A stretch of DNA of 62,345 nt from Candidatus Rifleibacteriota bacterium (GTDB lineage Bacteria; Muiribacteriota; Ozemobacteria; Ozemobacterales; Ozemobacteraceae), in the NCBI GenBank assembly GCA_012517355.1, contig JAAYVD010000167.1:1-62345 (forward strand). The letters are read 5' to 3'. The notes beneath the pieces are model-generated. The model did no database searches. It was not told the origin of the DNA and worked only from the letters and a program-made list of their open reading frames with translations. The translations under genes and the position numbers were made by a program. Position 1 is the stretch's first letter. Each line of letters opens with the position of its first letter. This document shows positions 23,989 through 44,331 of the stretch, piece after piece.

Positions 23989-25476
23989 TCAGGAAGGAAC
24001 GGCGGGGGCGATGGGGGGCAGCAGGCCGAGGTGGACGCCGGCCTGGGCCAGTTGCGTTTCGGGAACCCGGTCGACGGTGGCACCGCCCTGCCAGCGGTCG
24101 ATCCACAGGATCCGCGACCGGGGGGCCTGCCGCCGCAGGGCTGCCAGGCCATGGGTCCAGGCCTGCCGCATCGCCCGGTCCTCGGCTTCCTCTGCCGCTT
24201 TGAGGGAGCCCTTTTCTCCCTGGGTGGCGACCAACCGCACCAACCGGACCGCCAGTTCCTCGTCGGCCGAGAAGCGGGCCAGCACCAGGAACGGGGCATC
24301 CCGCCAGGCCAGGGCGAAGGGGATTCCCTGGTCGAGGAACCGCGGCAACTGGCCGACCCGGTCCGGCGGCAGGAGGATCCCCTCCCAGGCGGCCAGGGCG
24401 GGCCCCAGCCAGGCGATCGCCGCCTGCCGGGCTTGTCGCTCGACTCCAACCCCCACGACCGACTCGATCTCCCGCAGAAGCCGGCTCAACTCCCCCTGGC
24501 TGGTGGCCGGAGCCGACTGCAAGGCGGCGATCGCCTCGTGGAGCGGGTCACCGGCGGGAACCAGGGTCATCAGGGCCTGCACCTGACGGCGGGTGACCCA
24601 GCCCAGGGTTTCCGACTCGGCCTGCATGCGAAGCAGCCGACGGATCTCGGCATGGAGATCCTCGAGGACCGGAAGATCGGTGGCCGCCACCGATTCCTCG
24701 AACAGGCTCTTCAGGCGGGGGTAGGCGGGATGGGCCTTGAGCCGCGCCGCCCAGGCCCGGCAGAACCGCAGGTCCTCGCGGATGATCGCGGACTCGGAGG
24801 CCTCGTCTCCGCCTCCCACGGCCAGGACGGCCAATCTGCGGTTCGCCTCCATGAGCTTCTGGTTCACCGCGGCCATCTCGCCGGGCGGGGTTCCGGCCCA
24901 GCGATGGAGGTGGTCCGCCAGGGTCCCCAGGTCGGGGGCACCGGCTTCGGCCCGCTCGCGGACAACGGCGAGCAGGTCGGCATTCCGGCCCAGGAAATAC
25001 GAGAAGATCCAGGCGGTCCCGCTCTGCTCGGCCACCGCCCGGGCCGCGTCCAGGACGAACCCGTCCAGGGTTTCCCGCGCGGCGAACACGTCGGGCCAGC
25101 CGAACGTCCCCGTCGCCAGGCGCTCCAGCAGCCGCGCCCCTTGCTCGTTCCAGCTTCGGAGACGGTCGGTGAGCAGGGCCAGGTTCGGCCCGGCCACAGG
25201 ATTCCGGGCAAGCCAGGCTCCCAGACAGTCGGCAATCCCCTGCCAGCGCGCTTCCACCTCGGCTGCGAGGTCGGGGGTCCACCCCGGCCAGGGCGCCCCG
25301 GACACCGCGGCCAGCCGCCCGAGCCAGGCTCCCAGCAAGACCGGCAGTCGCAGCAGGTCGTCGAGCGTGGGGGCCGGATCCACCGCCGCAGGAGCTCGTC
25401 CCGCTGGCCCCCGATCGATCCCGACAACGAGGGGAAGGGGGGTGGCGATGAGAGCACTGCCCTGGGGTTCAGCCAT
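23989..25476 (-). CDS. Hypothetical protein, divergent from the FHA gene
   Basis: 495 residues, no signal peptide, rich in Ala, Leu and Arg and predominantly helical by appearance. No known domain is recognised. Notable segments are LLRLPVLLGAWLGRLAAV, AESETLGWVTRRQVQALMTL and a C-terminal alpha/beta-looking part (FLVLARFSADEELAVRLVR, SRILWIDRW). GGAGGG is two bases from ATG 25482 but six from ATG 25476, so the latter is chosen. Only 38 bases separate it from the divergent zinc-ribbon/FHA gene, which suggests shared control. It may be a partner in an FHA-dependent assembly, but this is inference. Confidence 0.7.
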   Translation of the reverse strand: MAEPQGSALIATPLPLVVGIDRGPAGRAPAAVDPAPTLDDLLRLPVLLGAWLGRLAAVSGAPWPGWTPDLAAEVEARWQGIADCLGAWLARNPVAGPNLALLTDRLRSWNEQGARLLERLATGTFGWPDVFAARETLDGFVLDAARAVAEQSGTAWIFSYFLGRNADLLAVVRERAEAGAPDLGTLADHLHRWAGTPPGEMAAVNQKLMEANRRLAVLAVGGGDEASESAIIREDLRFCRAWAARLKAHPAYPRLKSLFEESVAATDLPVLEDLHAEIRRLLRMQAESETLGWVTRRQVQALMTLVPAGDPLHEAIAALQSAPATSQGELSRLLREIESVVGVGVERQARQAAIAWLGPALAAWEGILLPPDRVGQLPRFLDQGIPFALAWRDAPFLVLARFSADEELAVRLVRLVATQGEKGSLKAAEEAEDRAMRQAWTHGLAALRRQAPRSRILWIDRWQGGATVDRVPETQLAQAGVHLGLLPPIAPAVPS

Positions 25477-25514
25477 TTGCATCCCTCCGCGCTTTCCGGT
25501 AGAAAGAAGGCATC

Positions 25515-25934
25515 ATGCCCGCCCAACCCCCGCCGCCCGCCCACTGCCCGGACTGCGAAACGCCGGTCACCCCCGCCCAGGGCCTGTGCCCGCGCTGCCT
25601 GGCCGACCTGTGGCGGCCCTCCCGGCCGGCCGCCGCCACCGGGCCCACCCTCCGGCTGACCGGACCGGGCTTCACCCTCGAACTGGCGGGGGAAACGGTG
25701 GTCGGCCGCAACAGCACGGGCCGCGAGGTGCTGTCCAGGTTCACCGAGGTCTCCCGCCAGCACGTCCGCCTGACCCGGGAACCCGCCGGCTGGTTCGTGG
25801 AGGATATGCACAGCCGCAACGGCACCAGTCTGAACGACGTCGGGCTGACCCCCGGGCGGAGGATCCGCCTGGCGCGCGGCGACCGGCTGGGCCTGGCCAA
25901 CGAGGTCGAACTGGTGGTGGACATCCAGCCCTGA
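25515..25934 (+). CDS. Zinc-ribbon plus FHA domain protein
   Basis: 139 residues. N-terminal zinc ribbon with CPDC (11-14) and CPRC (25-28). A complete FHA domain occupies about residues 46-138: VVGRNS (Arg65), TEVSRQHVRL (Ser80, His83), and SRNGTSLND (Asn102, Gly103). FHA domains bind phosphothreonine peptides, so this protein should read Thr phosphorylation by a Ser/Thr kinase, though no such kinase is in the window. AGAAAGAAGG precedes the ATG. It lies between an unknown protein and the HEPN/macro-like protein. Confidence 0.88.
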   Translation: MPAQPPPPAHCPDCETPVTPAQGLCPRCLADLWRPSRPAAATGPTLRLTGPGFTLELAGETVVGRNSTGREVLSRFTEVSRQHVRLTREPAGWFVEDMHSRNGTSLNDVGLTPGRRIRLARGDRLGLANEVELVVDIQP

Positions 25935-26069
25935 TCTTCCCGCAGGCCGATCGGAACCGCGGCACCGAACCGCCGTGCCGCTCCCCCCGCCCCCGTCACC
26001 CGCCCCGGTTTCGCCATCCCGGCCATTGTAGCCGTTCCCCCCTGCCCCGGCAAATCCCCCGGGAACGGC

Positions 26070-26098
26070 TTGCCGGCGGCCGCGACCGCTGGTACAAT
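26070..26098 (+). promoter_or_regulatory. Promoter of the HEPN/macro-like gene
   Basis: TTGCCG at 26070-26075, 17-base spacer, TACAAT at 26093-26098, 40 bases before the ATG at 26139. The gene is therefore probably transcribed separately from the FHA gene. Confidence 0.6.
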
Positions 26099-26138
26099 GG
26101 ATCCCAGGCGACTTCGCCCCGCACCCGCAGGAGGGAAA

Positions 26139-27560
26139 ATGACCGACCGGCCCGCCGACCACGCGCCCTTCCCCTACCCCTATCCGGTGGCCGCCATGCT
26201 GCACCACCTCGACGGCGCGACCGACCCCATCGCCCGGTTCATCCAGGTCGGGAACCTGTTCGAGGTCACCCTGAGATATCTCGCCGCCCTCACCCTGGGG
26301 TGGTATGTCCAATTGCCACGGTCCGGGGCCGCCGAGATCCACCCCCGCGTCCTGGCCGGGCTGGCCAGGCCTTCCCCGGGCCACTGGTGCCAGGTGGTGC
26401 ATGCGCTGCCCCCGCGCCTCGCCAAGGCAGGACCGGCCCCGATCCCGGAACTCCTGACCCTCGACCGGGCCGAGGAGCGGGGGGCTGGCTGGAACGCCGC
26501 CTACCGGAGCATCCAGGATTTCCTGGGCCGGGAGAACGAGGGCCTGCCGCGCCGCCTGTCGGTGGGTGGGCTGTTCGACCTGCACGTCGCCTTCCGCAAC
26601 AAGACCAAGGCCCACGGCGCCATCCAGCACGAACTCGCCCGGCGGCTGACCCCGGCCCTGGAGACCTCGCTGCGGGAGTCCCTGGAGGCCATCCCCCTCC
26701 TGCGGCGGTACGGGTTGGGAATGGTGCCCGCCGGCAGCGGCGGTTCCCCCATGGCCTTCGACTTCTCCCATCCACCCGCCGACCCCGTCGGCGCCCTGTG
26801 GGTGCTCGGCCCCGACGGTCACCCCCTTCTTCCCTTGCATCCGGCCATGACCTGGACCGACGGCGAGCCATGGTTCCTGAACGGGTGGACCTCCCCGAGC
26901 CAGGTCGAGTTCCTCAGCTACCTCACCGGCCGGATCAGGACCGCCCCCTGCCCCGACATCGTCCACCTCCTCCCCGACTCCGCTCCGGCCGGCCGGGCAT
27001 CCTGGCTCCAGGGCATCCGGTGGGCGGTCACCACCCGCGACCCCTGGGACGTCCCCGCCGACGCGGCGATCATGGCCCAGGACCGCCACCGGGTGTTCGG
27101 GCCGGTCCGGGAGGTGGCCGGGGAGCCACCCGCCGACGGGGCGATCGGGCAGGCCCTGGCGGCCGTCAGCGGCGGTCAGCCGGACGCCAGGGCCGGCGAG
27201 GTCCTGGTGTCCCGGCGCCCCTGGTGCGCCGCACGCTTCCTCCTGGAAGCCGTCGTCTACGACCTCGACCGCCAGGCCATCCTCGACGAGGACGCCCTGG
27301 CCATCGCGCTGCCGGAGGCCTTGCGACAGGCCGGCGACCTCGGCGCGGAAACCATCGCCCTGGGCCCCCTCGGCACCGAATACGGGGTGATCGCCCCCGA
27401 CCGTTTCGCCACCCTGCTGGTCACCGCTCTCGAGCAGGCCCACCCCCGCCTGCCCACCCTTGACCGCCTGATCGTGGCCACCCGGGAACCCGCTCTGGCC
27501 GCCCACCTCCGGAAGGCCCTCACCCACGCCCTTGGCCTTCCGGTCACGGCGGACGACTGA
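26139..27560 (+). CDS. Unknown protein with HEPN-like R-x5-H motif and macro-domain-like C-terminus
   Basis: 473 residues, cytoplasmic. The N-terminal 160 residues are helical with RFIQVGNLFEVTLRYLAAL, like Swt1-type HEPN domains, and contain RNKTKAH (R153 to H159), matching the R-x4-6-H active site of HEPN ribonucleases. A middle region (about 205-265) has a beta pattern with LLPLHPAMTW and EPWFLNGW. The C-terminal 120 residues look macro-domain-like: GEVLVSRRPWCAARFLLEAV, EALRQAGDLGAETIALGPLG, DRFATLLVTAL and LDRLIVA. Macro domains bind or hydrolyse ADP-ribose. AGGAGGG precedes ATG 26139. Domain calls are from pattern only; a defence or stress role is inference. Confidence 0.72.
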   Translation: MTDRPADHAPFPYPYPVAAMLHHLDGATDPIARFIQVGNLFEVTLRYLAALTLGWYVQLPRSGAAEIHPRVLAGLARPSPGHWCQVVHALPPRLAKAGPAPIPELLTLDRAEERGAGWNAAYRSIQDFLGRENEGLPRRLSVGGLFDLHVAFRNKTKAHGAIQHELARRLTPALETSLRESLEAIPLLRRYGLGMVPAGSGGSPMAFDFSHPPADPVGALWVLGPDGHPLLPLHPAMTWTDGEPWFLNGWTSPSQVEFLSYLTGRIRTAPCPDIVHLLPDSAPAGRASWLQGIRWAVTTRDPWDVPADAAIMAQDRHRVFGPVREVAGEPPADGAIGQALAAVSGGQPDARAGEVLVSRRPWCAARFLLEAVVYDLDRQAILDEDALAIALPEALRQAGDLGAETIALGPLGTEYGVIAPDRFATLLVTALEQAHPRLPTLDRLIVATREPALAAHLRKALTHALGLPVTADD

Positions 27561-27820: not shown

Positions 27821-28543
27821 ATGAATTCCCTGCGGTTGCCGGCTCTGGTTCTCGCTCTCCTCGTGGCTTTCGCACCTTTCGCGATGGCCGATGGCATCGA
27901 ACAGACCTTCGAGCACAAGCTCGGCATGAGCCAGGGGGCCACGAGCTGGGAACACCGGATCGACCTCCCCGAGGCCCTGGTCGCCCAGGGGCACGTTTTC
28001 CACAAGCGCACCTTCGCCCTGACCGGTCGCCTGGTCGTCGAGCGCGAGGAACTCGCCCGCACGTACTACTATGTCAAGGTCCGCCTGCCGAAATACCAGC
28101 TGCTGCCGATGAGCGGCGCCATCAAGATCTCCCTCGAGACAACCCAGACCCCGGTCGCCCCCACCGCGCTCCCCGCCCCCACGAAACTCTACATGACCAA
28201 CCCCGCTGATGCCCCCGGCTTCGGCTGGGAAGGCACGGGTTCCTTCGCCAACATCACCCTCCTCGAGCGCTCCTCGGGCAAGACCATCTGGGAACGGGTC
28301 CTCGCTGACCGGAAGCACTGCCACCTCGACGAGGATGTCCTGCAGTATTACGGCCGCTACATCTGGGCCGTCCGGCAGGGCGACGAGACCGCGACCTGGA
28401 GCCCCGCCGCCGAGTTCCGCTTCCGCATCGAGAAGCGGGTCGAGATCTGCCCCACCTGCCACGGGACCCCCACCCAGCCCCCGTGCACCACCTGCCACGG
28501 CACCGGCCATGTGACCGTGCCCGTGCTCTACCTCGACAACTGA
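27821..28543 (+). CDS. Secreted protein with C-terminal double CxxCxG motif
   Basis: 240 residues. Signal peptide LRLPALVLALLVAFAPFAMADG. The middle is beta-rich with YYYVKVRLPKYQLLPMSG and a fibronectin-like stretch (FGWEGTGSF..., IWAVRQGDETATWSPAAEFRF). The C-terminal 30 residues carry CPTCHGT and CTTCHGTG, half of a DnaJ-type zinc finger, so one zinc site is likely. GGAGGA precedes ATG 27821; upstream in-frame starts lack a ribosome site. No known family; probably periplasmic or secreted. Confidence 0.8.
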   Translation: MNSLRLPALVLALLVAFAPFAMADGIEQTFEHKLGMSQGATSWEHRIDLPEALVAQGHVFHKRTFALTGRLVVEREELARTYYYVKVRLPKYQLLPMSGAIKISLETTQTPVAPTALPAPTKLYMTNPADAPGFGWEGTGSFANITLLERSSGKTIWERVLADRKHCHLDEDVLQYYGRYIWAVRQGDETATWSPAAEFRFRIEKRVEICPTCHGTPTQPPCTTCHGTGHVTVPVLYLDN

Positions 28544-29043: not shown

Positions 29044-31443
29044 GTGAGAAAATCGCCGAAACAGTCCACCCTTTCCCCGGCTTCCCCGAAGCCGGGTCGC
29101 CTTCCTGATCCCGCCGCCCTCCCCCTCCGGACCCCGCAATGGTTCCGGTTCTTTCTCGACCGGCTCCAGGTGGGGTGCCTCATCTCCGACAGCGAAGGGC
29201 GGGTCCTGGCCGCCAACCCGGCCCTGATCGCCCTGGCGGGCTGCCGGGATCTCGCCGAACTCCAGGGGTTGGGGGCGACCGCCTTCTATGTCGACCAGGC
29301 CGACCGGCAGAAGATCCTGGCGGAACTGCACGCCCGGGGCAGCGTCCACCACCTGGAAGTCAGGTTGCAGCGGGCCACCGGCGAGCAGGTCTGGGCCCAC
29401 ATGAGCGGGTTCCTCCTGCGGGACGGCGGCGATGCCTCACCCCTGCTGTTCTCCCTCGTCGAGGACATCACCTCCCAGAAGAGCGCCCAACAACTCCTCG
29501 AATCCCAGCAGGAGCTGCTGCACAGCATCGGAGCCAATCTCCCCGACGGCGCGGTCTACCGCCTCGTCCATGCCCCCGACGGCCGTCGTTTCTTCGACTA
29601 TACCAGTGCGGGATTCGACGACCTGTTCGGCCTCCCCCCCGGGGCCGCCCGCCAGGACGCCGGCGTCGTGTATTCCCGCGTCCATCCCGAAGACGTGGAG
29701 GCCGCCATCCGCGCCGAAGCCGAAGCGGTGCGCACGGGTTCCCCCTACCGTCACGAGTGCCGGTTCGTCCTGCCCGGCAACCGGATCCGGTGGGTTCGTT
29801 GGCATTCGTTGCCGCGCCCCGCCCCCGACGGCGGCACCATCTGGAGCGGCCTCCTCCTCGACGTGACGGCCCGCCGGGAAGCCGAAGACCGTTTGCGGGA
29901 GAGCGAGGAGACCTTCCGCGGTCTGGTGGAGGTCTCTCCCGATGGCATCTCCCTGACCGATGGGGAAGGCCGGTTCCTGGCCATCAATCACCGATTCTCC
30001 GAACTGTTCGGCTACCAGGACGTCCATGAGATGAACGCCATCGGCCTCCACACCCACGATCTGGTCGATCCCTCGTCGGCCGGCGCCCTCGCCGAGTTCG
30101 CCCGGCTCCTGCAGGAACAAAAAGCCGCCCACTCTTTCCTGCTGCGCGTCCGCCGCCGCGACGGCTCGGTCTTTCCCGCCGAACTGAGCGCCACCCTGCG
30201 GGGCGACGCAGAGCAGGGCCAGATCTTCGTCCAGACGATCATCCGCGACGTGTCCGAACGGGAAAGGGAGCTCGAGGATCGGCGCCGCCTGGAGCTGCAG
30301 GTGCAGCAGGCCCAGAAGATGGACAGCCTGGGCCAGCTCGCCAGCGGGGTCGCCCACGACTTCAACAACCTGTTGTCGGTGATCCTCGGCAACACCGATC
30401 TCGCCCTGCGTGAGGTGCCCGAAGGGTCCCCCGTCCGGCAGCGACTGACCGAGATCTCCCGGGTCGTCCACCGCGCCGCCGACCTGTGCGGGCAGATGCT
30501 CGCCTACTCGGGGCGGGGCAGCCTGACGCTCGTTCCCCTCGACCTGTCGGCCCTGGTGCGGGAAATGTCCCGGATGCTCGAAGTGGCCATCTCCCGCAAG
30601 GTCACCCTCCAGATGGACCTCCCGGCCGGCCTGCCCCTGTTCGAAGGCGACCCCACCCAGATCCGGCAGGTGGTCATGAATCTCATCCTCAACGGCAGCG
30701 AGGCCATCGGGGAAACGGCGGGGGCCATCTCGGTCACCACCGGCACCGGCCGGCCGCCGGGCCGGCTGGCCACCGACTTCACCTGGTTCGGCGCAACCCC
30801 CACCGGACCGACGGTCTTTCTCGAAGTGGCCGATACCGGCCACGGCATAGACGGGGTGACCATCCAGAAGATCTTCGATCCCTTCTTCTCGACCAAGTTC
30901 TCGGGCCGCGGCCTCGGGCTGGCCACCGTCCTGGGCATCGTCCACAGTCACCACGGCGCGATCGGGGTGGCCAGCGCTCCCGGCTCCGGCACGACCTTCC
31001 GGACCCTTCTGCCCGCCCCGCCGGGGCTGACCAGGACCGCCGCGTCGCCGGAGCGGAAGCCACCGGCCTGGCAGGGCCATGGGACCATCCTGGTCGCCGA
31101 GGACGAAGAGGGAATCCGCTCCCTCCTGCAGGAGATGCTCGAGCCCATCGGTTTCTCCGTCCTGGGCGCGGCCGACGGTCGCCAGGCCCTGGATCTCTTT
31201 CGCCGGCACCGGGAGGAGATCCGCGGCGTCATCCTCGACCTGACGATGCCCCGGCTCGACGGCGCCGAGACCTTCCGCGAGATGGCCCGGATCGACCCGA
31301 AGGTCAAGGCCCTGTTCATCAGCGGGCTGGCCCTGCCGAAAGGCGGCCCCGAACCCCGCCTGCCGCCGGGCGCCCGTTCCCTGAGCAAACCGTTCACCGT
31401 GGAACGGCTCGTCCAGACCCTGAAACAGACCCTGGAAGGCTGA
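29044..31443 (+). CDS. Soluble PAS hybrid histidine kinase with receiver domain
   Basis: 799 residues, no membrane segment. Three PAS domains (about 35-150, 155-275, 290-400), a HisKA dimerisation helix with the phospho-His in LASGVAHDFNNLLSVI, and a HATPase domain (NLILNGSEA for the N box, DTGHGID, IFDPFFSTK, GRGLGLATV). The chain ends in a receiver domain with acidic ILVAEDEEG, phospho-Asp in ILDLTMPRLDG and Lys in SLSKPF. The H box with HDFNNLL is the type found in hybrid kinases such as those linked to NtrB-like subfamilies. GTG 29044 is the start; the ribosome site is weak. It has no paired regulator nearby, so the output target is unknown. Confidence 0.9.
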   Translation: MRKSPKQSTLSPASPKPGRLPDPAALPLRTPQWFRFFLDRLQVGCLISDSEGRVLAANPALIALAGCRDLAELQGLGATAFYVDQADRQKILAELHARGSVHHLEVRLQRATGEQVWAHMSGFLLRDGGDASPLLFSLVEDITSQKSAQQLLESQQELLHSIGANLPDGAVYRLVHAPDGRRFFDYTSAGFDDLFGLPPGAARQDAGVVYSRVHPEDVEAAIRAEAEAVRTGSPYRHECRFVLPGNRIRWVRWHSLPRPAPDGGTIWSGLLLDVTARREAEDRLRESEETFRGLVEVSPDGISLTDGEGRFLAINHRFSELFGYQDVHEMNAIGLHTHDLVDPSSAGALAEFARLLQEQKAAHSFLLRVRRRDGSVFPAELSATLRGDAEQGQIFVQTIIRDVSERERELEDRRRLELQVQQAQKMDSLGQLASGVAHDFNNLLSVILGNTDLALREVPEGSPVRQRLTEISRVVHRAADLCGQMLAYSGRGSLTLVPLDLSALVREMSRMLEVAISRKVTLQMDLPAGLPLFEGDPTQIRQVVMNLILNGSEAIGETAGAISVTTGTGRPPGRLATDFTWFGATPTGPTVFLEVADTGHGIDGVTIQKIFDPFFSTKFSGRGLGLATVLGIVHSHHGAIGVASAPGSGTTFRTLLPAPPGLTRTAASPERKPPAWQGHGTILVAEDEEGIRSLLQEMLEPIGFSVLGAADGRQALDLFRRHREEIRGVILDLTMPRLDGAETFREMARIDPKVKALFISGLALPKGGPEPRLPPGARSLSKPFTVERLVQTLKQTLEG

Positions 31444-31620: not shown

Positions 31621-33438
31621 TCAGTGCTCGCCCAGGGTGACCCGCACCACCTCTTCGATGGTCGTCTGGCCCAAAAGGGCCTTCCGCAGGGCCGACTCGC
31701 GCAGCGACAGCATGCCGTCCTCGACCGCCTGCCGGCGGATGTCGTCGGTGGAGCCGCCGTTGAGGATCAGTTCCCGCAGACGCTCGGTCATCGCCAGCAC
31801 CTCGTAGACGCCCACCCGCCCGCGCAGGCCGGCATTGTTGCAGGCCTCGCACCCTTTGCCGCGGTAGAACAGCAGGTTGCGCTCGTTGAGGTGGGGAAGG
31901 TCGAGCCGCCGCAGTAGTTCGGGCGTGATGCCGAGCTGGGCGAGCTGCTCGGCGCGGGGCTTGATCTCGGTCTTGCACTCCTTGCAGATGCGCCGCACCA
32001 GCCGCTGGGCCTGCACCAGCAGGACCGACGTCGTGATCATGAACGGCTCGATGCCCATGTTGGTCAGGCGGCCGATCGTGCCGGGAGCATCGTTGGTGTG
32101 CAGCGTCGACAGCACCAGGTGGCCGGTCATCGAGGCCTTGATGGCGATCTCGGCCGTCTCGAAATCGCGGATCTCCCCGACCATGATGATGTTCGGGTCC
32201 TGGCGCAGGAAGGACCGCAACGCCCCGGCGAAGGTGAGCCCGATCTCGGACCGGCACTGCAGCTGGTTGATGCCCGGCAGCATGTACTCGACCGGATCCT
32301 CGGCGGTCAGCACGTTCCGCTCGGCGGTGTTCAGGGTCGCCAGGGCCGAGTAGAGCGTCGTCGTCTTGCCCGACCCGGTGGGCCCCGTCACCAGCACGAT
32401 GCCGTAGGGCGCGGCGATGCCGGCCTTGAACCGGGCCAGGGTGCCAGGCTCGAAGCCGAGATCCTCGAGTTTGACCTTCAGGCTCGACTGGTCGAGGATG
32501 CGCATGACGATCTTTTCCCCCCACATCACCGGGATGATCGACACCCGCAGGTCGATGTTGCGCTGGTGCACCTTCAGCTTGATCCGGCCGTCCTGCGGCA
32601 ACCGCTTCTCGGCGATGTTCAGCGAGGCCATGATCTTGATGCGCGAGGCGATCGCCGCCGCCGCCTTCTTGGGAGGCTGCATCACCGTCTGCAACATGCC
32701 GTCCTGCCGGTACCGGACCCGCAGGTCCTTCTCGTGCGGCTCGATGTGGATGTCGGAGGCCCCGCTCTGGACGGCCTGGGCGATGACCAGGTGGCAGAGC
32801 CGGATGATCGGGGCGTCGTTCTCGTCGAAGTCCTGGCTCAGGTCGAGGTTGGCGGGATCCTCGGCGTCCTTGCTCATGGTGGTGATGTCGTCGATCAGCC
32901 GCTCGGTGAGGGTCCCTTCCCCGTGCGCCTCCTGCTGCGCCTTCGCCACCCCGGTCGGGGTGCCCACCACCGGCTTGACCATCAGCCCGGTGATGATGGC
33001 GACGTCGTCGATCGCGATGATGTTGAGCGGGTCGACCATGGCCACCGTCAGCTTGTTGCCCACCTTGTTGATGGGCACCAGCTGGTGCCGCCGCGCCAGG
33101 TGCTCGGGCACGAGCCGGGCGATGATCGGGTCGACCAGGTAGTTGCCCAGGTCGACGAACGGGATCCGCAGTTGCCGGCTCAAGACCTGGGCGATCTCGT
33201 TCTCGGTCACCAGGTGCATCTCGACCAGGATCGTGCCGAGCCTTTTCCCATGCTTCTTCTGCAACTCGAGCGCCTGGCGCAGCTGCTCCTCGGTGATCAG
33301 GCCGTCCTGCAGGAGGGCATCCCCCAGCCGGACCTTCCGGCCCGAGTCGGCAGGGGCGGCCAGGCCCCCCGGGGAAGCGGCGGAGGCCGGGGCGGATGGG
33401 GAAGCCGGGTTCGCCGGCGGCAGAATGGTGACGTTCAT
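31621..33438 (-). CDS. pilB: Type IV pilus assembly / type II secretion ATPase (PilB/GspE family)
   Basis: 605 residues. After a Pro/Ala-rich leader, an MshEN N-terminal domain (LGDALLQDGLITEEQLRQAL, residues about 35-185) precedes the hexameric ATPase: SGASDIHIEPHEKDLRVRYR, Walker A GPTGSGKTTTLYSAL (about 350), Asp box TAEDPVEY, Walker B NIIMVGEIRDFETAEIA and the His box TGHLVLSTLHTN. A tetracysteine zinc site (CKEC, CEAC) is kept. AGGAG precedes ATG 33438. It powers pilus extension or pseudopilus assembly at the inner membrane. The pseudopilin-like genes at 14.8-17.6 kb could be clients. PilT, PilC and PilD are not in the window. Confidence 0.92.
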   Translation of the reverse strand: MNVTILPPANPASPSAPASAASPGGLAAPADSGRKVRLGDALLQDGLITEEQLRQALELQKKHGKRLGTILVEMHLVTENEIAQVLSRQLRIPFVDLGNYLVDPIIARLVPEHLARRHQLVPINKVGNKLTVAMVDPLNIIAIDDVAIITGLMVKPVVGTPTGVAKAQQEAHGEGTLTERLIDDITTMSKDAEDPANLDLSQDFDENDAPIIRLCHLVIAQAVQSGASDIHIEPHEKDLRVRYRQDGMLQTVMQPPKKAAAAIASRIKIMASLNIAEKRLPQDGRIKLKVHQRNIDLRVSIIPVMWGEKIVMRILDQSSLKVKLEDLGFEPGTLARFKAGIAAPYGIVLVTGPTGSGKTTTLYSALATLNTAERNVLTAEDPVEYMLPGINQLQCRSEIGLTFAGALRSFLRQDPNIIMVGEIRDFETAEIAIKASMTGHLVLSTLHTNDAPGTIGRLTNMGIEPFMITTSVLLVQAQRLVRRICKECKTEIKPRAEQLAQLGITPELLRRLDLPHLNERNLLFYRGKGCEACNNAGLRGRVGVYEVLAMTERLRELILNGGSTDDIRRQAVEDGMLSLRESALRKALLGQTTIEEVVRVTLGEH

Positions 33439-33598
33439 GCGATCGCTCCTTTCGACACTCGACCTGCACATTCGGGGCTCGCGCGTTCGGCGTCTTCCGA
33501 AAGCCCCCCACCATCGTCATCGCATCCGCCGTGCCGACGACGCGGATCGGCCTGGGAAGCGGATCGACCGGTCCCTGGCCGCCAGACGACGAAAAGGG

Positions 33599-33646: not shown

Positions 33647-35299
33647 ATGACCCAGCCCTTGAGCGGTTTTTCGCTCCTCGACAACGAGCAGGACAAGGCG
33701 GCGGCCACCACCGTCCGGCGGTGGCGGCTGTTCCGGTCGACGGTGGCCTTCGCCCTCCAGGAGACCTTCCCCCTCACCACCCTGACCATCCTCTGGCAGC
33801 CAGGCCTGCGGGGGCAGGAAGCCCTGCTCGCCCGCGTCTGCGACGACATCCGCCGCCGCCTGGCCGAGCGCCGCCGGTCCCTCGACCTGCGGCTCCTCCC
33901 CGTCACCTTCGCCGACCCCTTCGACCTGCAGGACTGCTTCCAGGTCCTGTGGGACGCGGTGGAAGCCGACCACGCGGCCGCCGGCCCCGCCTTCTTCAAC
34001 CTGGGCAACGGCACCCACACCATGCAGATGGCCATGCTCCTGCTGGCCCGCTACCCGCCCGAGGGGCGGCCCCTCCACCTGCTGCAGGTCAGCCGCGACC
34101 GCGCCACCGCCGACCCCCTGGCCGCCACCACCTGGAAGGCGCAGGCCCGCCGCCTCGACCTCCGCTGGGAGAACCTCCGCCCCCTCGAACGCCGGGTCCG
34201 GCGCGAGAAGGGCGAGATCCTGCGCGCCGTGGCCCTGAAGCGGTCGCGCCACCCCGCCGCCGAACGCCTCTACCGCGAGATCGTCGAGATCGGCTGCTAC
34301 ACCGACGACCCCCTCCTCCTCACCGGCCCCACCGGCACCGGCAAGAGCCGCATCGCCCAGGAGATCCACCACGGCTGGGCCCGCCGGGCCGGCCGGCCCC
34401 AGGCCCCCTTCCTCGAGCTGAACGCCGCCGGCCTGTCGGGCGACCTGATCCGCTCCACCCTGTTCGGCCACACCCGCGGCGCCTTCACCGGGGCCACCGC
34501 CGACCGCGACGGCTTCCTGCTCGCCGCCGACCGCGGCACCCTCTTCCTCGACGAGATCGGCGAACTCGACCTGCGCTCCCAGGCCGAGCTGCTGCTGGCC
34601 CTCGAGACCCGCACCTTCTACCCGGTGGGCTCGACCCAGCGCAGGACCAGCGACTTCCGGCTGCTGTGCGCCACCAACCAGGACCTCCGCCGCATGGTGC
34701 AGGCGGGCACCTTCCGCGAGGACCTCTACACGCGGATCCGTTGCTGGGAGTTCCGGTTGCCCGGCATCCGCGACCTGCCGCGGGATTTCGAGGGCCACGT
34801 CGACCACGAGATCCGGCTGTTCAATGCCGCCGAGTTCCGCAAGGACAACCCGCAGCCGTTCCAGGTCGTCTTCGAGCCCGAGGCCAAGGCGGCCTACCTC
34901 GCCTTCGGCACCTCACCCGCCGCGCTCTGGGCCGGCAACTTCCGCGACCTGAAGTTCTCGGTGCGCCGGATGGCCATCAAGGCCCGTCTCCGCGAGACCC
35001 CCATCACGCCCGCCCTCGTCGCCGAAGAGATCGCCCATCTCGAAGGCCTGTGGGCCCCGGCCGCCCGGCCGCCGGCCGCCGACCTCGACGACACGCTGGC
35101 CCGCCTGGAGGAGCACGCCCGCCGCCGCCACCCCGCCATGCATCTGCTCGACGCCGTGGAGGCCACCCTCCTGACACGGGGCTACGAACGCGAGGGGAAC
35201 AAGGCCCGCGTCGCCCGGTGGCTGTACGAGTCGCCGGGCCAGACGCTGGCCAACCCCTCCAACCGCTTCCGGGAGCGCTTCAAGAGCCTCTTCCCCTGA
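33647..35299 (+). CDS. rtcR: RtcR-type sigma-54 activator with CARF-like sensor domain
   Basis: 550 residues. The N-terminal about 185 residues match the RtcR/CARF regulatory domain (TILWQPGLRGQEALLARV, FFNLGNGTHTMQMAMLLLA). A sigma-54 AAA+ domain follows: GPTGTGKS (227-234), the sigma-54 contact loop GAFTGA (278-283), FLDEIGEL Walker B, and LYTRIRCWEFRLPG. A C-terminal helix-turn-helix follows. RtcR normally activates rtcBA RNA-repair operons in response to RNA ends or cyclic nucleotides. No rtcA, rtcB or other repair gene lies in the window; the gene is divergent from pilB and the gene after it is on the other strand. GAGGAG precedes ATG 33647. Confidence 0.88.
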   Translation: MTQPLSGFSLLDNEQDKAAATTVRRWRLFRSTVAFALQETFPLTTLTILWQPGLRGQEALLARVCDDIRRRLAERRRSLDLRLLPVTFADPFDLQDCFQVLWDAVEADHAAAGPAFFNLGNGTHTMQMAMLLLARYPPEGRPLHLLQVSRDRATADPLAATTWKAQARRLDLRWENLRPLERRVRREKGEILRAVALKRSRHPAAERLYREIVEIGCYTDDPLLLTGPTGTGKSRIAQEIHHGWARRAGRPQAPFLELNAAGLSGDLIRSTLFGHTRGAFTGATADRDGFLLAADRGTLFLDEIGELDLRSQAELLLALETRTFYPVGSTQRRTSDFRLLCATNQDLRRMVQAGTFREDLYTRIRCWEFRLPGIRDLPRDFEGHVDHEIRLFNAAEFRKDNPQPFQVVFEPEAKAAYLAFGTSPAALWAGNFRDLKFSVRRMAIKARLRETPITPALVAEEIAHLEGLWAPAARPPAADLDDTLARLEEHARRRHPAMHLLDAVEATLLTRGYEREGNKARVARWLYESPGQTLANPSNRFRERFKSLFP

Positions 35300-38256: not shown

Positions 38257-38726
38257 CCACCCCGCCCAAGCACGGCAGGTGCCGATCCTTGACGCTGATC
38301 AAGGGCTGGAGAGGAAGGGGGCTGGCGCGATTCCCCGAAGGGGGCGAAGACGGGGTGCCCGCGACGGGAGATCTTCCAAGGGAACCTCCGGGAGGCTTCG
38401 GGAACCGTTGCTCCGGGAAGATGAACCCCGAAACCTGTGATGAGCCCGGCCGGATACGCGTCGGGACAGCTTCTGCGCAACCCTGGACGTTTCCCCGGGT
38501 GCCCCCCCTGGCCGCCCGGCCGGGATGGGGCTGACATGCTTTCGCAGAGCCATCGCCCATCTTGGGTGAATCCTCCCGCCTGTCCTGCGGGCAGATTGAT
38601 CGGCAAAGGCACCTGGCAAGTCCCCCGCCCCGGAAACGCGAAGCGTTCCCGGGGCATGCAGACGGGGTCCAGGGGCCGCGGCCCCTGGGCGGGTGGTCCG
38701 GAGGGGCGCCGCCCCTCCGGACGGCG
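38257..38726. other. Intergenic region before the hydrogenase-like operon end
   Basis: The left part has no recognisable gene. The right part holds copy 2 of the composite hairpin repeat (38627-38735), which touches the stop of the ferredoxin/NuoB-like gene. Short open frames lack ribosome sites and domains. Confidence 0.45.
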
Positions 38727-38735
38727 TCAGCGGGA
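38627..38735 (+). repeat. Composite three-hairpin repeat, copy 2
   Basis: GCCCCGGAAACGC/GCGTTCCCGGGGC (38627-38655), then CAGGGGCC/GGCCCCTG (38670-38687), then GTCCGGAGGGGC/GCCCCTCCGGAC (38697-38721), followed by GGCGTCAGCG. GGGGTCC, GGGTGGTCC and the order of stems match copy 1 at about three quarters of positions. The last stem lies just past the stop of the minus-strand operon and may help terminate it. Confidence 0.7.
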
Positions 38736-39500
38736 CGGCGTCTCCGGGGGCAGCCGGCCGATCAGCCGCAGCAGGCCGTCCAGGATGGTCAGGGGATGCG
38801 GGGGGCAGCCCGGCACATACAGGTCGACGGGCAGCAACCCGCCCACCCCGTCGTGCTGTTCGGGGTGGCCGCGGAACGGCCCCCCGCTGATGGCGCACGC
38901 CCCCACCGCCACGACCAGCCGGGGCGGCGGCACCCCCTCGAAGGTCTTGCCGACCGCCAGCCGCATGTTCTCCGTGACCGGCCCCGTCACGATCAGGCCG
39001 TCGGCATGACGCGGCGAGGCCACGATCTTCAGCCCGAACCGCCCGAGATCGAAGACCACCGTCGTGAGCACGTTGATGTCGACCTCGCAGCCGTTGCAGC
39101 CCCCGGCGCTGACCTGCCGGAACTGCAGCGACCGGCCGAACACCCGGAGCATCTCCGCGTCGAGGGCCGCTGCCAGCCGGGGGCCGTCCCGCCCGGCCAC
39201 CAGGTCCTCCCGGCGGCGCGTGGCCAGCCGGAAATCGTTGCCGAACCGCAACGCCCCCGTCGGGCAGGCCTCCGCGCACCGCCCGCAGAACAGGCAGCGG
39301 CCGAGGTCCATCCGCAAGGCGCCTTCCCAGGTCAGGGCCTCGACCGGGCAGGCGTCGAGGCAGGCCCGGCAACCCATCCGGCAGGCGGCCTCGTCGAGGA
39401 CCGGCCGGCCGCGCAGCCGGTCCGGCACGACGGCCGGGGAGTCCGGCCACCCGATGGTCCGGAACCCTTGATGATGACGGGCCTTCAGAATGTCGAACAT
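38727..39500 (-). CDS. Fused ferredoxin and NuoB/HyfI-like small subunit of the Ehr complex
   Basis: 257 residues. The N-terminal half has two cluster motifs: CRMGCRACLDACP (first spacing C-x3-C rather than C-x2-C) and a regular CLFCGRCAEACP. The second half is the hydrogenase small subunit/NuoB fold with all four ligands of the proximal [4Fe-4S] cluster: GGCNGCEVD, VGACAISGG and VPGCPPHP. In E. coli hydrogenase-4 these are separate proteins (HyfH and HyfI). AGGA precedes ATG 39500. It is last in the operon and should pass electrons from a soluble donor to the large subunit. Confidence 0.9.
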   Translation of the reverse strand: MFDILKARHHQGFRTIGWPDSPAVVPDRLRGRPVLDEAACRMGCRACLDACPVEALTWEGALRMDLGRCLFCGRCAEACPTGALRFGNDFRLATRRREDLVAGRDGPRLAAALDAEMLRVFGRSLQFRQVSAGGCNGCEVDINVLTTVVFDLGRFGLKIVASPRHADGLIVTGPVTENMRLAVGKTFEGVPPPRLVVAVGACAISGGPFRGHPEQHDGVGGLLPVDLYVPGCPPHPLTILDGLLRLIGRLPPETPSR

Positions 39501-39519
39501 GTTTTCCTGTCTTGTACCA

Positions 39520-41142
39520 TCATAAATCGAACCCGCAGTAGGACAGGTTGAAACTCTTGTTGCACAGCGGGAAGTCCGAGATCTGCTGGTTCCGCAGCGC
39601 CATCCCCAATCCGATCCAGTTGTGGAACGAGGGGTCGACCACCTTGTAGCGGGCGAAGGTCCCCCGCGCGTCGGTGACCGCCACGTGGCAGATCTCCCCA
39701 CGCCAGCCCTCCACCAACGAGACGGCCAGCATGTCGGGGGGCAGGGGGGTGCCCGTCTCCAGGCCCACTGCCGCCCCCGACCCGCCCGCCAGGCCCGTCA
39801 CCCCGCCTCCAGGCAGCCTCGCCAGAAGATCCAGCAGGAAACGCAGGGAATTCTCAATCTCGGTGGCCCGCACCACCGCCCGCGCCAGCACGTCCCCACC
39901 CCGCAGTTCGGGGTCGGGAAGGGGCGGCACCCCCGACCGCGCATACTGCCCGGCCGGAAAGTTCCAGCGCACGTCCCGCTCCGCCCCGCAGGCCCGTGCC
40001 GCCGGCCCGACCAGGCCCAGGGCCCGGCAGGCCTCCCGCGACACCGTTCCCGTCCGCTCGAACCGGGCCATCACGCCGGGGGTCTCCCACAGCAGCTGGA
40101 TGGCCGACCGCGTGTCCGCCCGCCCCCGCTCCAGGCCGGTGATCAGCTTCTGGAGCCGCTCCTCCGTGTCGAGGTCATACCCGACCCCACCGGGCCGCAC
40201 CAGCCCGCGCCCCAGCCGGCTGCCGCACAGCAGGGCGGAAAGGTTCAAAAAGTCGCCCCGGATGCGGCCGCAGAAGGCCGAAGTAGGCAGGAACCCGACA
40301 TCCCCCGCCAGGGCCCCCAGGTCGCCCGTGTGATTGGCCAGCCGCTCCAGCTCGAGCCCGACCGCGCGCAGGGCCTCGGCCCGCGGAGGGACCGTCCAGC
40401 CCCGCAGGGTCTCGATGATCTGGGCGTAGGCGGTCGTGTGCCCGACCGTGGTGTCGCCGGCGATCGCCTCGACCTGGAACAGGGTGCGCGGATGCGGCCC
40501 GCCCAGCAGGGCCCGCTCGATGCCACGGTGCTGGTAGCCAAGCGAGATCTCCAGGTGGAAGACGTCCTCGCCATGGCACTGGAACCGGAAATGCCCCGGC
40601 TCGATGACCCCGGCGTGGACCGGCCCGACGGCCACCTCGTGCACCCCCTCCCCCTCCAGCCGGAAGAAATCCGCCACCCCGGGCAGTCCCCGGGGGCTTC
40701 CCGCCAGGGGCGGATCCGACTGACCTGCCCCGGCGGTGCCACGCGAGGCAGCCTCCGGCAGGCCATCCCTGCCGCCCCCCAGGGGCGGCTGGAACCGGAC
40801 GGGCCGCGGCCAGGGATGCCCTTCCGGCACGACCCCGAACTGCTCGGCGAGTTCCCGTTCGAACAGGTGCGCCTGCGGACAGTCGGGCGTGAGAGCCTGA
40901 AAGCGCGGCCCCACCTCGGTCGACAGCACCTCCAGGTCACCACGGGCATCGTCGGCCAGCACCGCGAACACGGGCAGCGGCCCGGCCCCCGGCGCGACCG
41001 CCGGCAGGCCGAACAGCGCCGCGATCCGCTTCCCTTCCCCCACCGCCTCGAGCACCCGGGCCCGGAATCCGTCGAAGGCGAGCCGGGGAACCCGGCCCAG
41101 CGTCGTGGCCCGGCCGTTCCGCAGCAGGCACGTCCCGCTCAC
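39520..41142 (-). CDS. NuoCD/HyfG-like large subunit lacking nickel ligands
   Basis: 540 residues. An N-terminal NuoC-like domain (LTPDCPQAHLFERELAEQFGV, GHPWPRPVRF) is joined to a NuoD/hydrogenase large-subunit domain (HFRFQCHGEDVFHLEISLGYQHRGIE, VGLELERLANHTGDLGALAGD). Where group 4 NiFe hydrogenases have CGICxxxH, this protein has GDTTVGHTTAY, and the C-terminal DPCxxC is replaced by FPLCNKSFNLSYCGFDL. It therefore cannot hold the NiFe site. This matches Ehr complexes, whose reaction is still debated. GTG 41142 has GCGGAGG upstream and overlaps the preceding small ORF (GTGA). Confidence 0.9.
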   Translation of the reverse strand: MSGTCLLRNGRATTLGRVPRLAFDGFRARVLEAVGEGKRIAALFGLPAVAPGAGPLPVFAVLADDARGDLEVLSTEVGPRFQALTPDCPQAHLFERELAEQFGVVPEGHPWPRPVRFQPPLGGGRDGLPEAASRGTAGAGQSDPPLAGSPRGLPGVADFFRLEGEGVHEVAVGPVHAGVIEPGHFRFQCHGEDVFHLEISLGYQHRGIERALLGGPHPRTLFQVEAIAGDTTVGHTTAYAQIIETLRGWTVPPRAEALRAVGLELERLANHTGDLGALAGDVGFLPTSAFCGRIRGDFLNLSALLCGSRLGRGLVRPGGVGYDLDTEERLQKLITGLERGRADTRSAIQLLWETPGVMARFERTGTVSREACRALGLVGPAARACGAERDVRWNFPAGQYARSGVPPLPDPELRGGDVLARAVVRATEIENSLRFLLDLLARLPGGGVTGLAGGSGAAVGLETGTPLPPDMLAVSLVEGWRGEICHVAVTDARGTFARYKVVDPSFHNWIGLGMALRNQQISDFPLCNKSFNLSYCGFDL

Positions 41143-41288
41143 CGGCCACCTCCGCAGGCGGGAACCCGCCCCGGCGGCACGACGACGGCCGTTCCCCCGG
41201 CCACGCCCCCGCCGCCCCGGGACAGGCACGCTCCCCGCACGAACTGGGCCTCAGCCGGGGCGACGACGGAAAGACAGGGTCCGTTCAT
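41139..41288 (-). CDS. Possible small translationally coupled ORF
   Basis: A 49-codon frame between the membrane subunit and the large subunit. Its ATG overlaps the upstream TGA (ATGA at 41288-41285) and its own TGA overlaps the next GTG (GTGA at 41142-41139), so a ribosome could pass through all three frames. The peptide (MNGPCLSVVAPAEAQFVRGA then Gly/Val-rich, with three Cys in all) resembles no family. It may be a real small protein, a coupling device, or chance. Confidence 0.4.
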   Translation of the reverse strand: MNGPCLSVVAPAEAQFVRGACLSRGGGGVAGGTAVVVPPGRVPACGGGR

Positions 41289-42790
41289 CGGCCCCCTCCG
41301 GGCAACACGGCCGACCCGTGCTGGACGATGGCCGCCGCCTGCTCCAGCACGCCGCGGCAGGGACCGGGCATCCACACACCCAAGAGGAGAAGCACGACGA
41401 GAGGCCCCGCCACGAGCAGGACGTCGAGCCCGCCCGCCGGGGCAGGGACGACCGCCGGCGACGGCTTCCCCAGCGCCAGGGGCAGGGCGTGGCCGAGCGC
41501 GCCCAGGAAGACCGCGCCGGTGCCGGCCAGGAAGAGGGCCACCACCGCGTAGTTCCCGCCGTCGACGGCCGCCTTCAAAATCTGCAGCTCGCTCATGAAC
41601 AGGCAGAACGGCGCCATGCCGATCAGCGCCAGCAGGCTGCCGAGAAGGCCGATCCCCCAGACCGGCGCCACCGTGCAGCTGCCGCCCATCCGCTCCATGT
41701 CGTGGGTGCCGTAGACCTGGCCCAGCCGGCCGGCCGCGAAGAACGACAGCGTCTTGCACAGCGAATGGTTGAAGGTGTGGAACAGCGCCGCGAAGGTGCC
41801 CAGCCCGCCGAGGCCGAAGCCCAGCGCGATGATGCCGAGGTGCTCGACGCTGTGGTAGGCCAGCAGCCGCTTGAGATCGTGCTGCCACAGGATGAAGGCG
41901 GCCGCCACGAGGATGGAGAACAGCCCGAACCCGGTCAGCAGGCGCAGCGCCCACCCGGTGTGGCCGGTCGCCCCCTCCACCAGCGGCACGTAGCGGAGCA
42001 CGCAGTAGAGCGCGGTGTTCAGCATGAACCCCGAGAACACCGCCGAGACCGGCGCCGGAGCCTTGCTGTGCGCGTCCGGCAGCCAGGTGTGCAGCGGGGC
42101 CAGCCCCGCCTTGGTGCCGTACCCGACCAGCACGAACAGGAAGGCCGCCTTGACCAGCGACGGGGCCAGGGCCCCGGTGTTGGCCAGCAGATTCGTCCAC
42201 AGCAGGGCCTGGTTGGGATCAAGCGGCAGGTCCTTGGCCGCGACCCTGATCATCAGCGTGCCCAGGAAGGCGAAACCGATCCCCACCGAGCAGATCAGCA
42301 TGTACTTCCACATCGCCTCGAGCGACCCGCGGGTCATGTGGACACAGATCAGAAACGAGGTGACCAGCGTCGTGGCCTCCATGCCCACCCACATGATGCC
42401 CAGGTTGTTCGAAACGACGACCAGGACCATGGCCCCCAGCGCCGGCGGCCACAAGCCCGCGAAGGTTCGCACCTGGGCCAGGGTCAGCCGGCCCTCCCGC
42501 ACCTCCTCCCCGAAGTAGCGCAGGGCGAAGAGGGAACTGAGGGTGAAGACCACGAGCATCACCGCGAGGTGGTAGGCCGAGAGCGCGTCGAGGAACAACC
42601 AGCGGGAAAAACCGAACAGCGGCCCGGCGCTGAACACCTTGCCGATGGCCAAGGCCCCGAGCCCCGCCGTGACCAGGACACCCCCGACGGCCGTCTCCAG
42701 TTCCGCCTCGCGCGAGGTGAAGACCTGCGACAGCAGTCCGGCCAGGACCGGCACCACCACCAGCGAGGCGAGCAGCCAACCGTGTTCCAC
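41285..42790 (-). CDS. Antiporter-like membrane subunit (HyfF/NuoM-NuoN-like) of the Ehr complex
   Basis: 501 residues, about 14 membrane helices. Proton-antiporter signs: the conserved Glu in IMWVGMEATTLVTSFLI, the lysine helix LVKAAFLFVLVGYGTKAGLAPLHTWLPDAHSKAPAPVSA, and WQHDLKRLLAYHSVEHLGIIALG with lysine and histidines in the broken helix. It pumps protons or sodium ions across the inner membrane. The start is GTG 42790 with AGGGGAAG upstream, seven bases after the HyfE-like stop. The stop overlaps the small ORF start. Confidence 0.93.
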   Translation of the reverse strand: MEHGWLLASLVVVPVLAGLLSQVFTSREAELETAVGGVLVTAGLGALAIGKVFSAGPLFGFSRWLFLDALSAYHLAVMLVVFTLSSLFALRYFGEEVREGRLTLAQVRTFAGLWPPALGAMVLVVVSNNLGIMWVGMEATTLVTSFLICVHMTRGSLEAMWKYMLICSVGIGFAFLGTLMIRVAAKDLPLDPNQALLWTNLLANTGALAPSLVKAAFLFVLVGYGTKAGLAPLHTWLPDAHSKAPAPVSAVFSGFMLNTALYCVLRYVPLVEGATGHTGWALRLLTGFGLFSILVAAAFILWQHDLKRLLAYHSVEHLGIIALGFGLGGLGTFAALFHTFNHSLCKTLSFFAAGRLGQVYGTHDMERMGGSCTVAPVWGIGLLGSLLALIGMAPFCLFMSELQILKAAVDGGNYAVVALFLAGTGAVFLGALGHALPLALGKPSPAVVPAPAGGLDVLLVAGPLVVLLLLGVWMPGPCRGVLEQAAAIVQHGSAVLPGGGR

Positions 42791-42796
42791 CTTCCC

Positions 42797-43432
42797 CTAC
42801 CCCTTCAGGTGCTGCAACTGGTCGGTGTCGATGTGGTGGAATGCCCGGTCCAGGTACCGGATGAGCACCGTCCAGATCAACACCGCCACGAACATGTCGA
42901 GCAGCACCCCGATCTCGACGAGAAACGGGGCATAGTACAAGGTGCCCACGCCCAGCAAAAACGCCCCGTTTTCCATGGCCAGGAACCCGACCACCTGCGA
43001 CAGGGCCTTCTTCCGACTGACGATCAGCAACTGCCCGCAGAACACCGAGAACAGCGTCGCCGGAACCACCAGCCGCGACATGTCCCCGCCCGGGATGTGC
43101 AGCCGGGTGCCGAGCCAGAGCGAGACGACCAGGGCGACCATGCCGAGGAGGGTCGAGCCCATGGGCCCGACATAGGGGTCGACCTCCTGGCTCACGTGAA
43201 CGACGTTGGCCACCGGCCGCAGCAGCCAGGGGAAGACGAACCCCTTCAGCACCAGCGCCACCAAGCCGACCACGAAGACGTCGGCGGTGAGATGCACCCA
43301 GCGTGCATGCAGGGCGAACAGGCCCAACAGAACGCCCTGCACGCCGATCCAGGTGATCAGGGACTCGATCCGGCTGGTCGACAGCAACCGGATGTTCGAC
43401 AACACCACCAGGATGATCAGCAGGTCGTTCAT
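42797..43432 (-). CDS. HyfE-like membrane subunit
   Basis: 211 residues with about seven membrane helices, matching HyfE (216 residues in E. coli), which combines NuoK-like and NuoJ-like character. Evidence: LLIILVVLSNIRLLSTSRIESLITWIGVQG at the N-terminus, LVALVLKGFVFPWLL and FLAMENGAFLLGVGTLYYAPFLVEIGVLLDMFV near the end, where the Glu in AMEN and VEIG mark the NuoK-like ion path. ATG 43432 overlaps the upstream stop (ATGA). Confidence 0.92.
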   Translation of the reverse strand: MNDLLIILVVLSNIRLLSTSRIESLITWIGVQGVLLGLFALHARWVHLTADVFVVGLVALVLKGFVFPWLLRPVANVVHVSQEVDPYVGPMGSTLLGMVALVVSLWLGTRLHIPGGDMSRLVVPATLFSVFCGQLLIVSRKKALSQVVGFLAMENGAFLLGVGTLYYAPFLVEIGVLLDMFVAVLIWTVLIRYLDRAFHHIDTDQLQHLKG

Positions 43433-44331
43433 TGGATCAGAAACCCCAGCAGGGCCAGGGAACAGGCCCCGATCAGCAGGTGCGGCACCTGCACGAGACG
43501 CAGCCGCACCAATGTCGACTCGATGATGCCGACCAGCACGGCCAGCCCCGCCAGGCCGGCCACCATGGCCGCCAGGTCGATGGCCACCTCCCCCGTGCGC
43601 ACCGGCAGCGCGATGCCGGTGATGAGCGCCCCGAGGATCCAGAGTTTGAGCGCGGCGGCATACTCGACGAAGGCGAAGTCGGGGCCGCCGTGGTCGAGGA
43701 CCATCACCTCGTGGATCATCGTCAACTCCAGGTGGGTGGTCGGGTCGTCGACCGGGATCCGCGAATTCTCGGCGAGAAAGACCAGGAACAGGCCGGCCAG
43801 CACCAGCAGCAACGTGGCCCCGTGGGCCGCCCAGTCGCCGACATCGATCGGCCGGATCAGCCCTTCCAGCGACAGCCGGCCGGTCTGCCGGGCCACCGCC
43901 ACCAGGCCGAACAGCAGGGCGGGCTCGGCCAGCGCGGCGAAGGCCATTTCGCGACTGGCCCCCATGCCCTCGAAGGCGCTGCCCGTGTCCATGGCGGCGA
44001 TGACGGTCAGGAACCGGGCCAGCGCGAGCAGGTAGATGACGAAGACCAGGTCGCCCTCGAACGAGAAGGGGGCCGGCAGGTTGCCGAGAGGCAGGAACAG
44101 CAGGCACAGGGCGGCAACGCCCACTCCCGCCGCCGGCCCGAGCCGGAACACCCAGCTGGTCGTGCCGCTGTAGACCGCCCCTTTCCGAAGCAGCTTGGCG
44201 ATGTCGTAGTAGGGTTGCAGCAGGGGGGGGCCGCGCCGCCCCGCGAACCAGGCCTTGGTGCGGGTGATGATCCCCTGCAGGAGAGGCGCGCCGGCCAACG
44301 CCAGCACGGGGGGCAGGATGGCCGCGCTCAC
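43429..44331 (-). CDS. HyfC/NuoH-like membrane subunit
   Basis: 300 residues, eight or so helices. It anchors the hydrophilic arm. Evidence: GRRGPPLLQPYYDIAKLLRKG, the acidic loop DTGSAFEGMGASREMAFAAL, and LAENSRIPVDDPTTHLELTMIHEVMVLDHGG, all hallmarks of HyfC/HycD/NuoH. GTG 44331 overlaps the TGA of the upstream gene and has GGAGGG before it. The following stop overlaps the HyfE-like start. Confidence 0.94.
   Translation of the reverse strand: MSAAILPPVLALAGAPLLQGIITRTKAWFAGRRGPPLLQPYYDIAKLLRKGAVYSGTTSWVFRLGPAAGVGVAALCLLFLPLGNLPAPFSFEGDLVFVIYLLALARFLTVIAAMDTGSAFEGMGASREMAFAALAEPALLFGLVAVARQTGRLSLEGLIRPIDVGDWAAHGATLLLVLAGLFLVFLAENSRIPVDDPTTHLELTMIHEVMVLDHGGPDFAFVEYAAALKLWILGALITGIALPVRTGEVAIDLAAMVAGLAGLAVLVGIIESTLVRLRLVQVPHLLIGACSLALLGFLIQ

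Follow-up and report, generated by a model that had tools for sequence, protein, structure and literature searches.

A probable HEPN ribonuclease gene linked to paralogues of a pilus motor and of the regulator RtcR in a Candidatus Rifleibacteriota bacterium

In one contig of a 7.1-Mb Candidatus Rifleibacteriota genome (G000), analysed here over its whole length of 62,345 nucleotides (the window), we found that a gene for a probable RNA-cutting HEPN protein has two conserved partners: pilB2, encoding a second PilB/GspE-type pilus motor, and rtcR2, encoding a paralogue of RtcR. The three genes are linked in two genera, in an order that both share. The placement of a duplicated RtcR gene facing a duplicated pilus motor gene, next to a probable HEPN RNase, raises the possibility that broken RNA controls a surface machine, perhaps one involved in motility, adhesion or DNA uptake or used as a phage receptor. 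If this is true, RNA-damage signalling is coupled to type IV pili.

The region around the HEPN gene contains the following features (window positions).

23989-25482, minus strand: 497-aa protein, a neighbour with relatives that adjoin Ser/Thr kinases (homologue search and neighbourhood)
25515-25934, plus strand: zinc-ribbon/FHA protein, a neighbour judged to lie outside the HEPN unit (Pfam and neighbourhood)
26030-26070, no strand: perfect 10-bp inverted repeat (AGCCGTTCCC/GGGAACGGCT) just upstream of the sigma70-like promoter, a possible operator (sequence)
26070-26098, plus strand: sigma70-like promoter TTGCCG-17-TACAAT, 5' of the HEPN gene (sequence)
26139-27560, plus strand: HEPN-macro-like protein, 473 aa, R153-NKTKA-H159 (reading frame and homologues)
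26163-26729, plus strand: predicted HEPN domain, about residues 9-197, with E42xxxR46 and R153-x5-H159 (motifs, alignment and model)
26775-27020, plus strand: middle beta-rich region, residues 213-294, WFLNGW...VEFLSYLTG, also recognisable in the relatives L101 and L102
27021-27482, plus strand: macro-like domain, residues 295-448, without ligand motifs (profile alignment)

The three open reading frames reported by the first-pass annotation are each present at their positions. The divergent gene described as encoding 495 residues lies on the minus strand, and its full reading frame encodes 497; the shorter length corresponds to a start at the second ATG, at a distance of 38 bases from the FHA start. 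In the adjacent protein, described as a zinc-ribbon/FHA reader, the FHA domain was confirmed (Pfam FHA, E=2e-12), and the zinc ribbon was seen only weakly. Apart from FHA and a weak macro match, none of the three proteins matched a named family in Pfam or NCBIfam, and the defence models of the PADLOC library gave no match to any of them.

Homologues of the HEPN-macro-like protein were found in three of the 40 phylum genomes searched: G000 itself, and G012 and G009, which belong to other genera. Identity to the window protein was 44% for G012 and 51%, over the fragment present, for G009; homologues at these identities in two other genera indicate that the 473-aa reading frame is a real gene. 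The homologue search found it in neither of the two other genomes of G000's genus. An alignment-based contig scan returned the same two metagenome-assembled genomes and no others, a contig scan with single-protein patterns gave no match, and neither did a plasmid tblastn search with the HEPN protein and its relative L102.

Two features are conserved in the HEPN superfamily, Rx4-6H and Ex3[KR] (PMC3710099), and the window protein carries both. The stretch FRNKTKAHGAI is kept entire in the G012 and G009 homologues. A profile of the N-terminal domain retrieved two further phylum proteins, L102 and L101, the latter consisting of a PCMT methyltransferase followed by a HEPN-like domain. Ex3[KR] and RNx4-6H, with a polar residue after the R, were invariant in all five relatives, as were E42, R153, N154 and H159 individually; the first-pass annotation had named R153 and H159 as the residues to check, and both are unchanged in the two homologues and the two more distant relatives. 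No Pfam model matched the window protein directly. L102 forms a bridge to a Pfam HEPN family, PF18735 (HEPN_RiboL-PSP), with E=4e-6 and 27.3 bits against a curated cut-off of 28.4.

We utilized AlphaFold2 to model the HEPN domain from a five-row alignment, and the predicted structure was all-helical (pLDDT 71.7, pTM 0.71). In this medium-confidence model E42xxx[KR] lies inside helix 22-54, R153 is near the end of helix 134-149 and H159 is in the following loop (model residues 145 and 151); the assignments to helix 2 and helix 3 are numbered by analogy. The predicted helix layout, in which the motif falls at the end of a helix, agrees with the HEPN assignment made earlier. A full-length prediction from three rows was unusable (pLDDT 38.7). 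Foldseek comparison of the domain model with the PDB and viral proteins returned nothing significant, HEPN or other, so the model is consistent with a HEPN fold, with no solved relative confirming it. The motifs, the Pfam bridge through L102 and the model's helix layout together support a HEPN domain, and the protein probably cuts RNA. It resembles HEPN RNases in its Rx4-6H motif with a polar residue, in Ex3[KR] within an earlier helix and in the motif's position at a helix end; it differs from them in having no direct Pfam match and in adding C-terminal beta-rich and macro-like regions.

The C-terminal part had been described as a macro-like ADP-ribose module, of which the remote homology to macro domains held up and the ADP-ribose-binding motifs proved to be missing. 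Residues 295-448 aligned with 14 macro domains of the phylum collinearly over 150 columns without rearrangement. The hhalign score was 30.0, at a probability of only 23% and a single-comparison E of 0.0009; the top score among 60 column shuffles was 22.5. Other matches were weak: NCBIfam macro at E=0.025, PDB 2dx6 as the top hit, and, as the best phylum match outside the family, a macro protein, confirmed by Pfam, that adjoins a DarT-like ORF. The Pfam Macro domain (PF01661) was not matched at its gathering threshold. Of the ADP-ribose motifs NxAN and GGG-V-D neither is present; MAQD replaces NAAN, and the glycine loop is absent. Because the ligand motifs are gone, we call this part macro-like rather than an ADP-ribose-binding macro domain; the sequence comparisons support it as a remote homologue only, apparently degenerate for ADP-ribose binding. 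HEPN is likewise joined with a macro domain in the pEK499_p136-type systems with ART and Macro genes (PMC3710099), which are separate operon genes; the window protein is a single polypeptide in which the macro-like domain is degenerate, and an ART gene was not recognised nearby. Elsewhere in the phylum, a DarT-like ORF and, immediately after it, a macro (DarG-like) ORF form a likely DarTG pair (L107:629-2295, G003 contig C19).

The two partners that are conserved with the HEPN gene lie 4-9 kb downstream of it, beyond the three genes of the first-pass annotation.

31621-33471, minus strand: PilB2, second PilB/GspE-type ATPase (T2SSE and MshEN), linked to the HEPN gene in G000 and G012
33521-33536, minus strand: sigma54-like box CGGCACGGCGGATGCG 5' of pilB2, with a perfect TGGCACGACGGTTGCA at the same place in G012
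33647-35299, plus strand: RtcR2, CARF and sigma54 activator, divergent from pilB2 (Pfam and motifs)

In G012, a convergent pilB comes 40 bases after the HEPN gene, and beyond it a divergent RtcR-like gene. Gene order in the window is identical, except that two genes are inserted between the HEPN gene and pilB2. The only clear orthologues shared by the 62-kb window and a 44-kb part of the G012 contig were HEPN-macro, PilB2 and RtcR2, with order and orientation both preserved. The remaining real-looking matches were distant and partial, except for a PAS histidine kinase (29044-31443) that has the same architecture as the kinase beside RtcR2 in G012, at 31% identity and in a different place. Orthologues of RtcR2 and PilB2 were found only in G000 and G012, and RtcR2 is absent from both other genomes of G000's genus. 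The G009 contig ends inside the HEPN gene, so that only its 5' side, which holds other genes, is visible and any downstream partners are not. The linkage sample is therefore two complete examples and one cut at a contig end. The literature searched held no description of this arrangement of a HEPN-macro-like gene with rtcR2 and pilB2, which is known to us from the two complete cases.

At 27821-28543 the window encodes a secreted-looking protein with a C-terminal CXXCXGXG region, from a family with up to six copies per genome. G000 and G009 each have a copy next to the HEPN gene, though on opposite sides of it. We rejected this gene as part of the unit because it belongs to a multi-copy family present in 18 of the 40 genomes. 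Farther along the window, the minus strand of 38300-46500 carries a cluster resembling a membrane-bound hydrogenase/complex I-like operon, and the AT skew over 40-46 kb is strong (0.25-0.35).

PilB2 is additional to the usual motor: in G000 and in G012 a canonical pilB is also present, within an operon that includes pilT, pilin and prepilin peptidase genes. The linked copies form their own clade (100/100) on long branches, which the PilB tree places unsurely.

RtcR is known to switch on RNA repair in response to broken tRNAs. Its CARF domain binds 5' tRNA fragments ending in 2',3'-cyclic phosphate, after which the protein oligomerises (PMC7790460). RtcR2 resembles the regulator of the RtcR-RtcBA repair operon (PMC7790460, PMC9650030) in combining a CARF domain (PF06956) with a GAFTGA-bearing sigma54 activator domain; it differs in facing pilB2 and in being only about 36% identical to the phylum's canonical RtcR, a divergence that may mean a different ligand. 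The PF06956 match scored 37.2 bits in the window and 49.6 bits in G012 (cut-off 23.1), and the GAFTGA, Walker A/B and CARF GTHxxQ motifs are intact. RtcR2 is 67% identical between G000 and G012. Canonical RtcR sits with rtcA and rtcB in G010, G011 and G022. RtcR2 does not adjoin these genes; G000's rtcB is on another contig, and no canonical rtcR from G000 was among the matches listed. On contig C183 of G000 (L143:7691-9266), rtcB adjoins an apparently shortened rtcA reading frame.

The sigma54 box before pilB2 in G012 is perfect and the sole exact match in 19.9 kb. Its window counterpart has three mismatches and a score that by itself is not above chance; the block GGCACG-CGG-TGC is the best conserved part of the intergenic alignment.

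Pairing of HEPN with CARF is shared with the CARF-HEPN RNases Csm6/Csx1, except that here the two domains are on separate proteins, of which the CARF-bearing one is an activator of transcription. At the locus itself no CRISPR genes were recognised. A CRISPR-like array, in which a 37-nt repeat (GTTTCAATCCCCGATGTGGTGGGGAAGTGAGGGGAAC) occurs 22 times about every 76 nt, lies on G000 contig C147 (L127:38-1686), the contig that also carries the PCMT-HEPN relative L101.

We tentatively propose that the three genes form a unit in which an RNase-competent HEPN protein signals through RtcR2 to pilB2, a reading that is possible and rather more likely to fail than to hold. The HEPN RNases leave 2',3'-cyclic phosphate ends (PMC3710099), and since the RtcR CARF domain is known to bind tRNA fragments that end in this way, they would switch on RtcR2; cleavage would thus be the signal, RtcR2 the reader and pilB2 the output. 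The degenerate C-terminal domain would act as a sensor or brake on HEPN; a stress signal read by this part would release cleavage, probably of tRNA; the resulting cyclic phosphate ends would activate RtcR2; and sigma54-dependent transcription of pilB2 would alter type IV pilus assembly. The sequence comparisons establish the domains and motifs, the linkage and co-occurrence of the three genes and the conserved sigma54-like box; the cleavage, the ligand, activation by the cleavage products and the effect on pili are all steps that we infer. In its full form, which we consider unlikely, the pathway would run from a HEPN RNase that carries its own macro-like sensor, through RNA ends read by an RtcR paralogue, to a dedicated pilus motor. 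Several observations count against the pathway: two other genes separate the HEPN gene from pilB2 in the window, the macro-like part has no ligand motifs, and the HEPN gene has its own sigma70-like promoter and no convincing sigma54 box upstream. The small number of linked cases, the mismatches in the window's sigma54 box, the empty Foldseek comparison and the low identity of RtcR2 to canonical RtcR weigh on the same side.

The HEPN-macro-like protein might instead work on its own as a stress or anti-phage effector, cutting RNA upon infection, and be adjacent to RtcR2-PilB2 through joint gain or common ancestry, with no joint function; we consider this alternative about as likely as the proposed unit. 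HEPN RNases are frequently suicide effectors, and HEPN and Macro genes occur in conflict operons (PMC3710099); the gene's own promoter and its sporadic presence, in three genomes and in neither genus mate, fit such a role. However, the PADLOC search was empty, no recognised defence genes adjoin the HEPN gene, and the linkage was kept in two genera while the remaining neighbourhood was exchanged. Less probably, both domains are non-catalytic and the protein, binding RNA or nucleotides but not cleaving them, serves RtcR2 or PilB2 as a regulator or scaffold. The degenerate macro-like part would suit this, and some HEPN domains do serve as binding modules (PMC3710099), but the invariance of R153, N154, H159 and E42 in five of five relatives argues for a kept active site.

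The first-pass annotation had read the 497-aa, FHA and HEPN-macro genes as one conflict locus combining RNA cleavage, ADP-ribose and phospho-signalling; their adjacency, seen in G000 only, favours this, but it is very improbable, since the genes are not adjacent in G012, other genes occupy the 5' side in G009, the FHA and 497-aa relatives occur in other settings and the HEPN gene has a separate promoter. In no other genome was the HEPN gene seen beside either neighbour. We also rejected an FHA-HEPN operon: the gap of about 205 bases and the HEPN gene's own promoter do not suggest one, and the adjacency is not conserved. Within 26025-26098, the sigma70-like TTGCCG-17-TACAAT occurs on both strands, flanking the perfect inverted repeat, and the minus-strand copy would fire toward the FHA gene.

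The two neighbours have relatives in a different context. Weak homologues of the 497-aa protein occur in two genomes (E=3e-8 and 5e-5), and its relatives in G003 and G010 adjoin Ser/Thr kinases of the same type; no kinase of that type was found within the 62-kb window. For the FHA protein, the closest relatives in G001, G002 and G003 have a radical-SAM gene, a ClpB-like AAA gene and a kinase in their vicinity, and those in G010 and G011 lie by a response regulator. As far as this evidence goes, the FHA and 497-aa genes appear to fall outside the HEPN unit and to resemble members of a separate kinase-linked system. A recurrent set in G003, G010, G001 and G002 (L136, L137, L138, L141, L142) comprises a GxEADIY-type Ser/Thr kinase, a zinc-ribbon-FHA protein, a ClpB-like AAA protein and a small radical-SAM protein, sometimes joined by the 497-aa family, and looks like a phospho-signalling system of the phylum.
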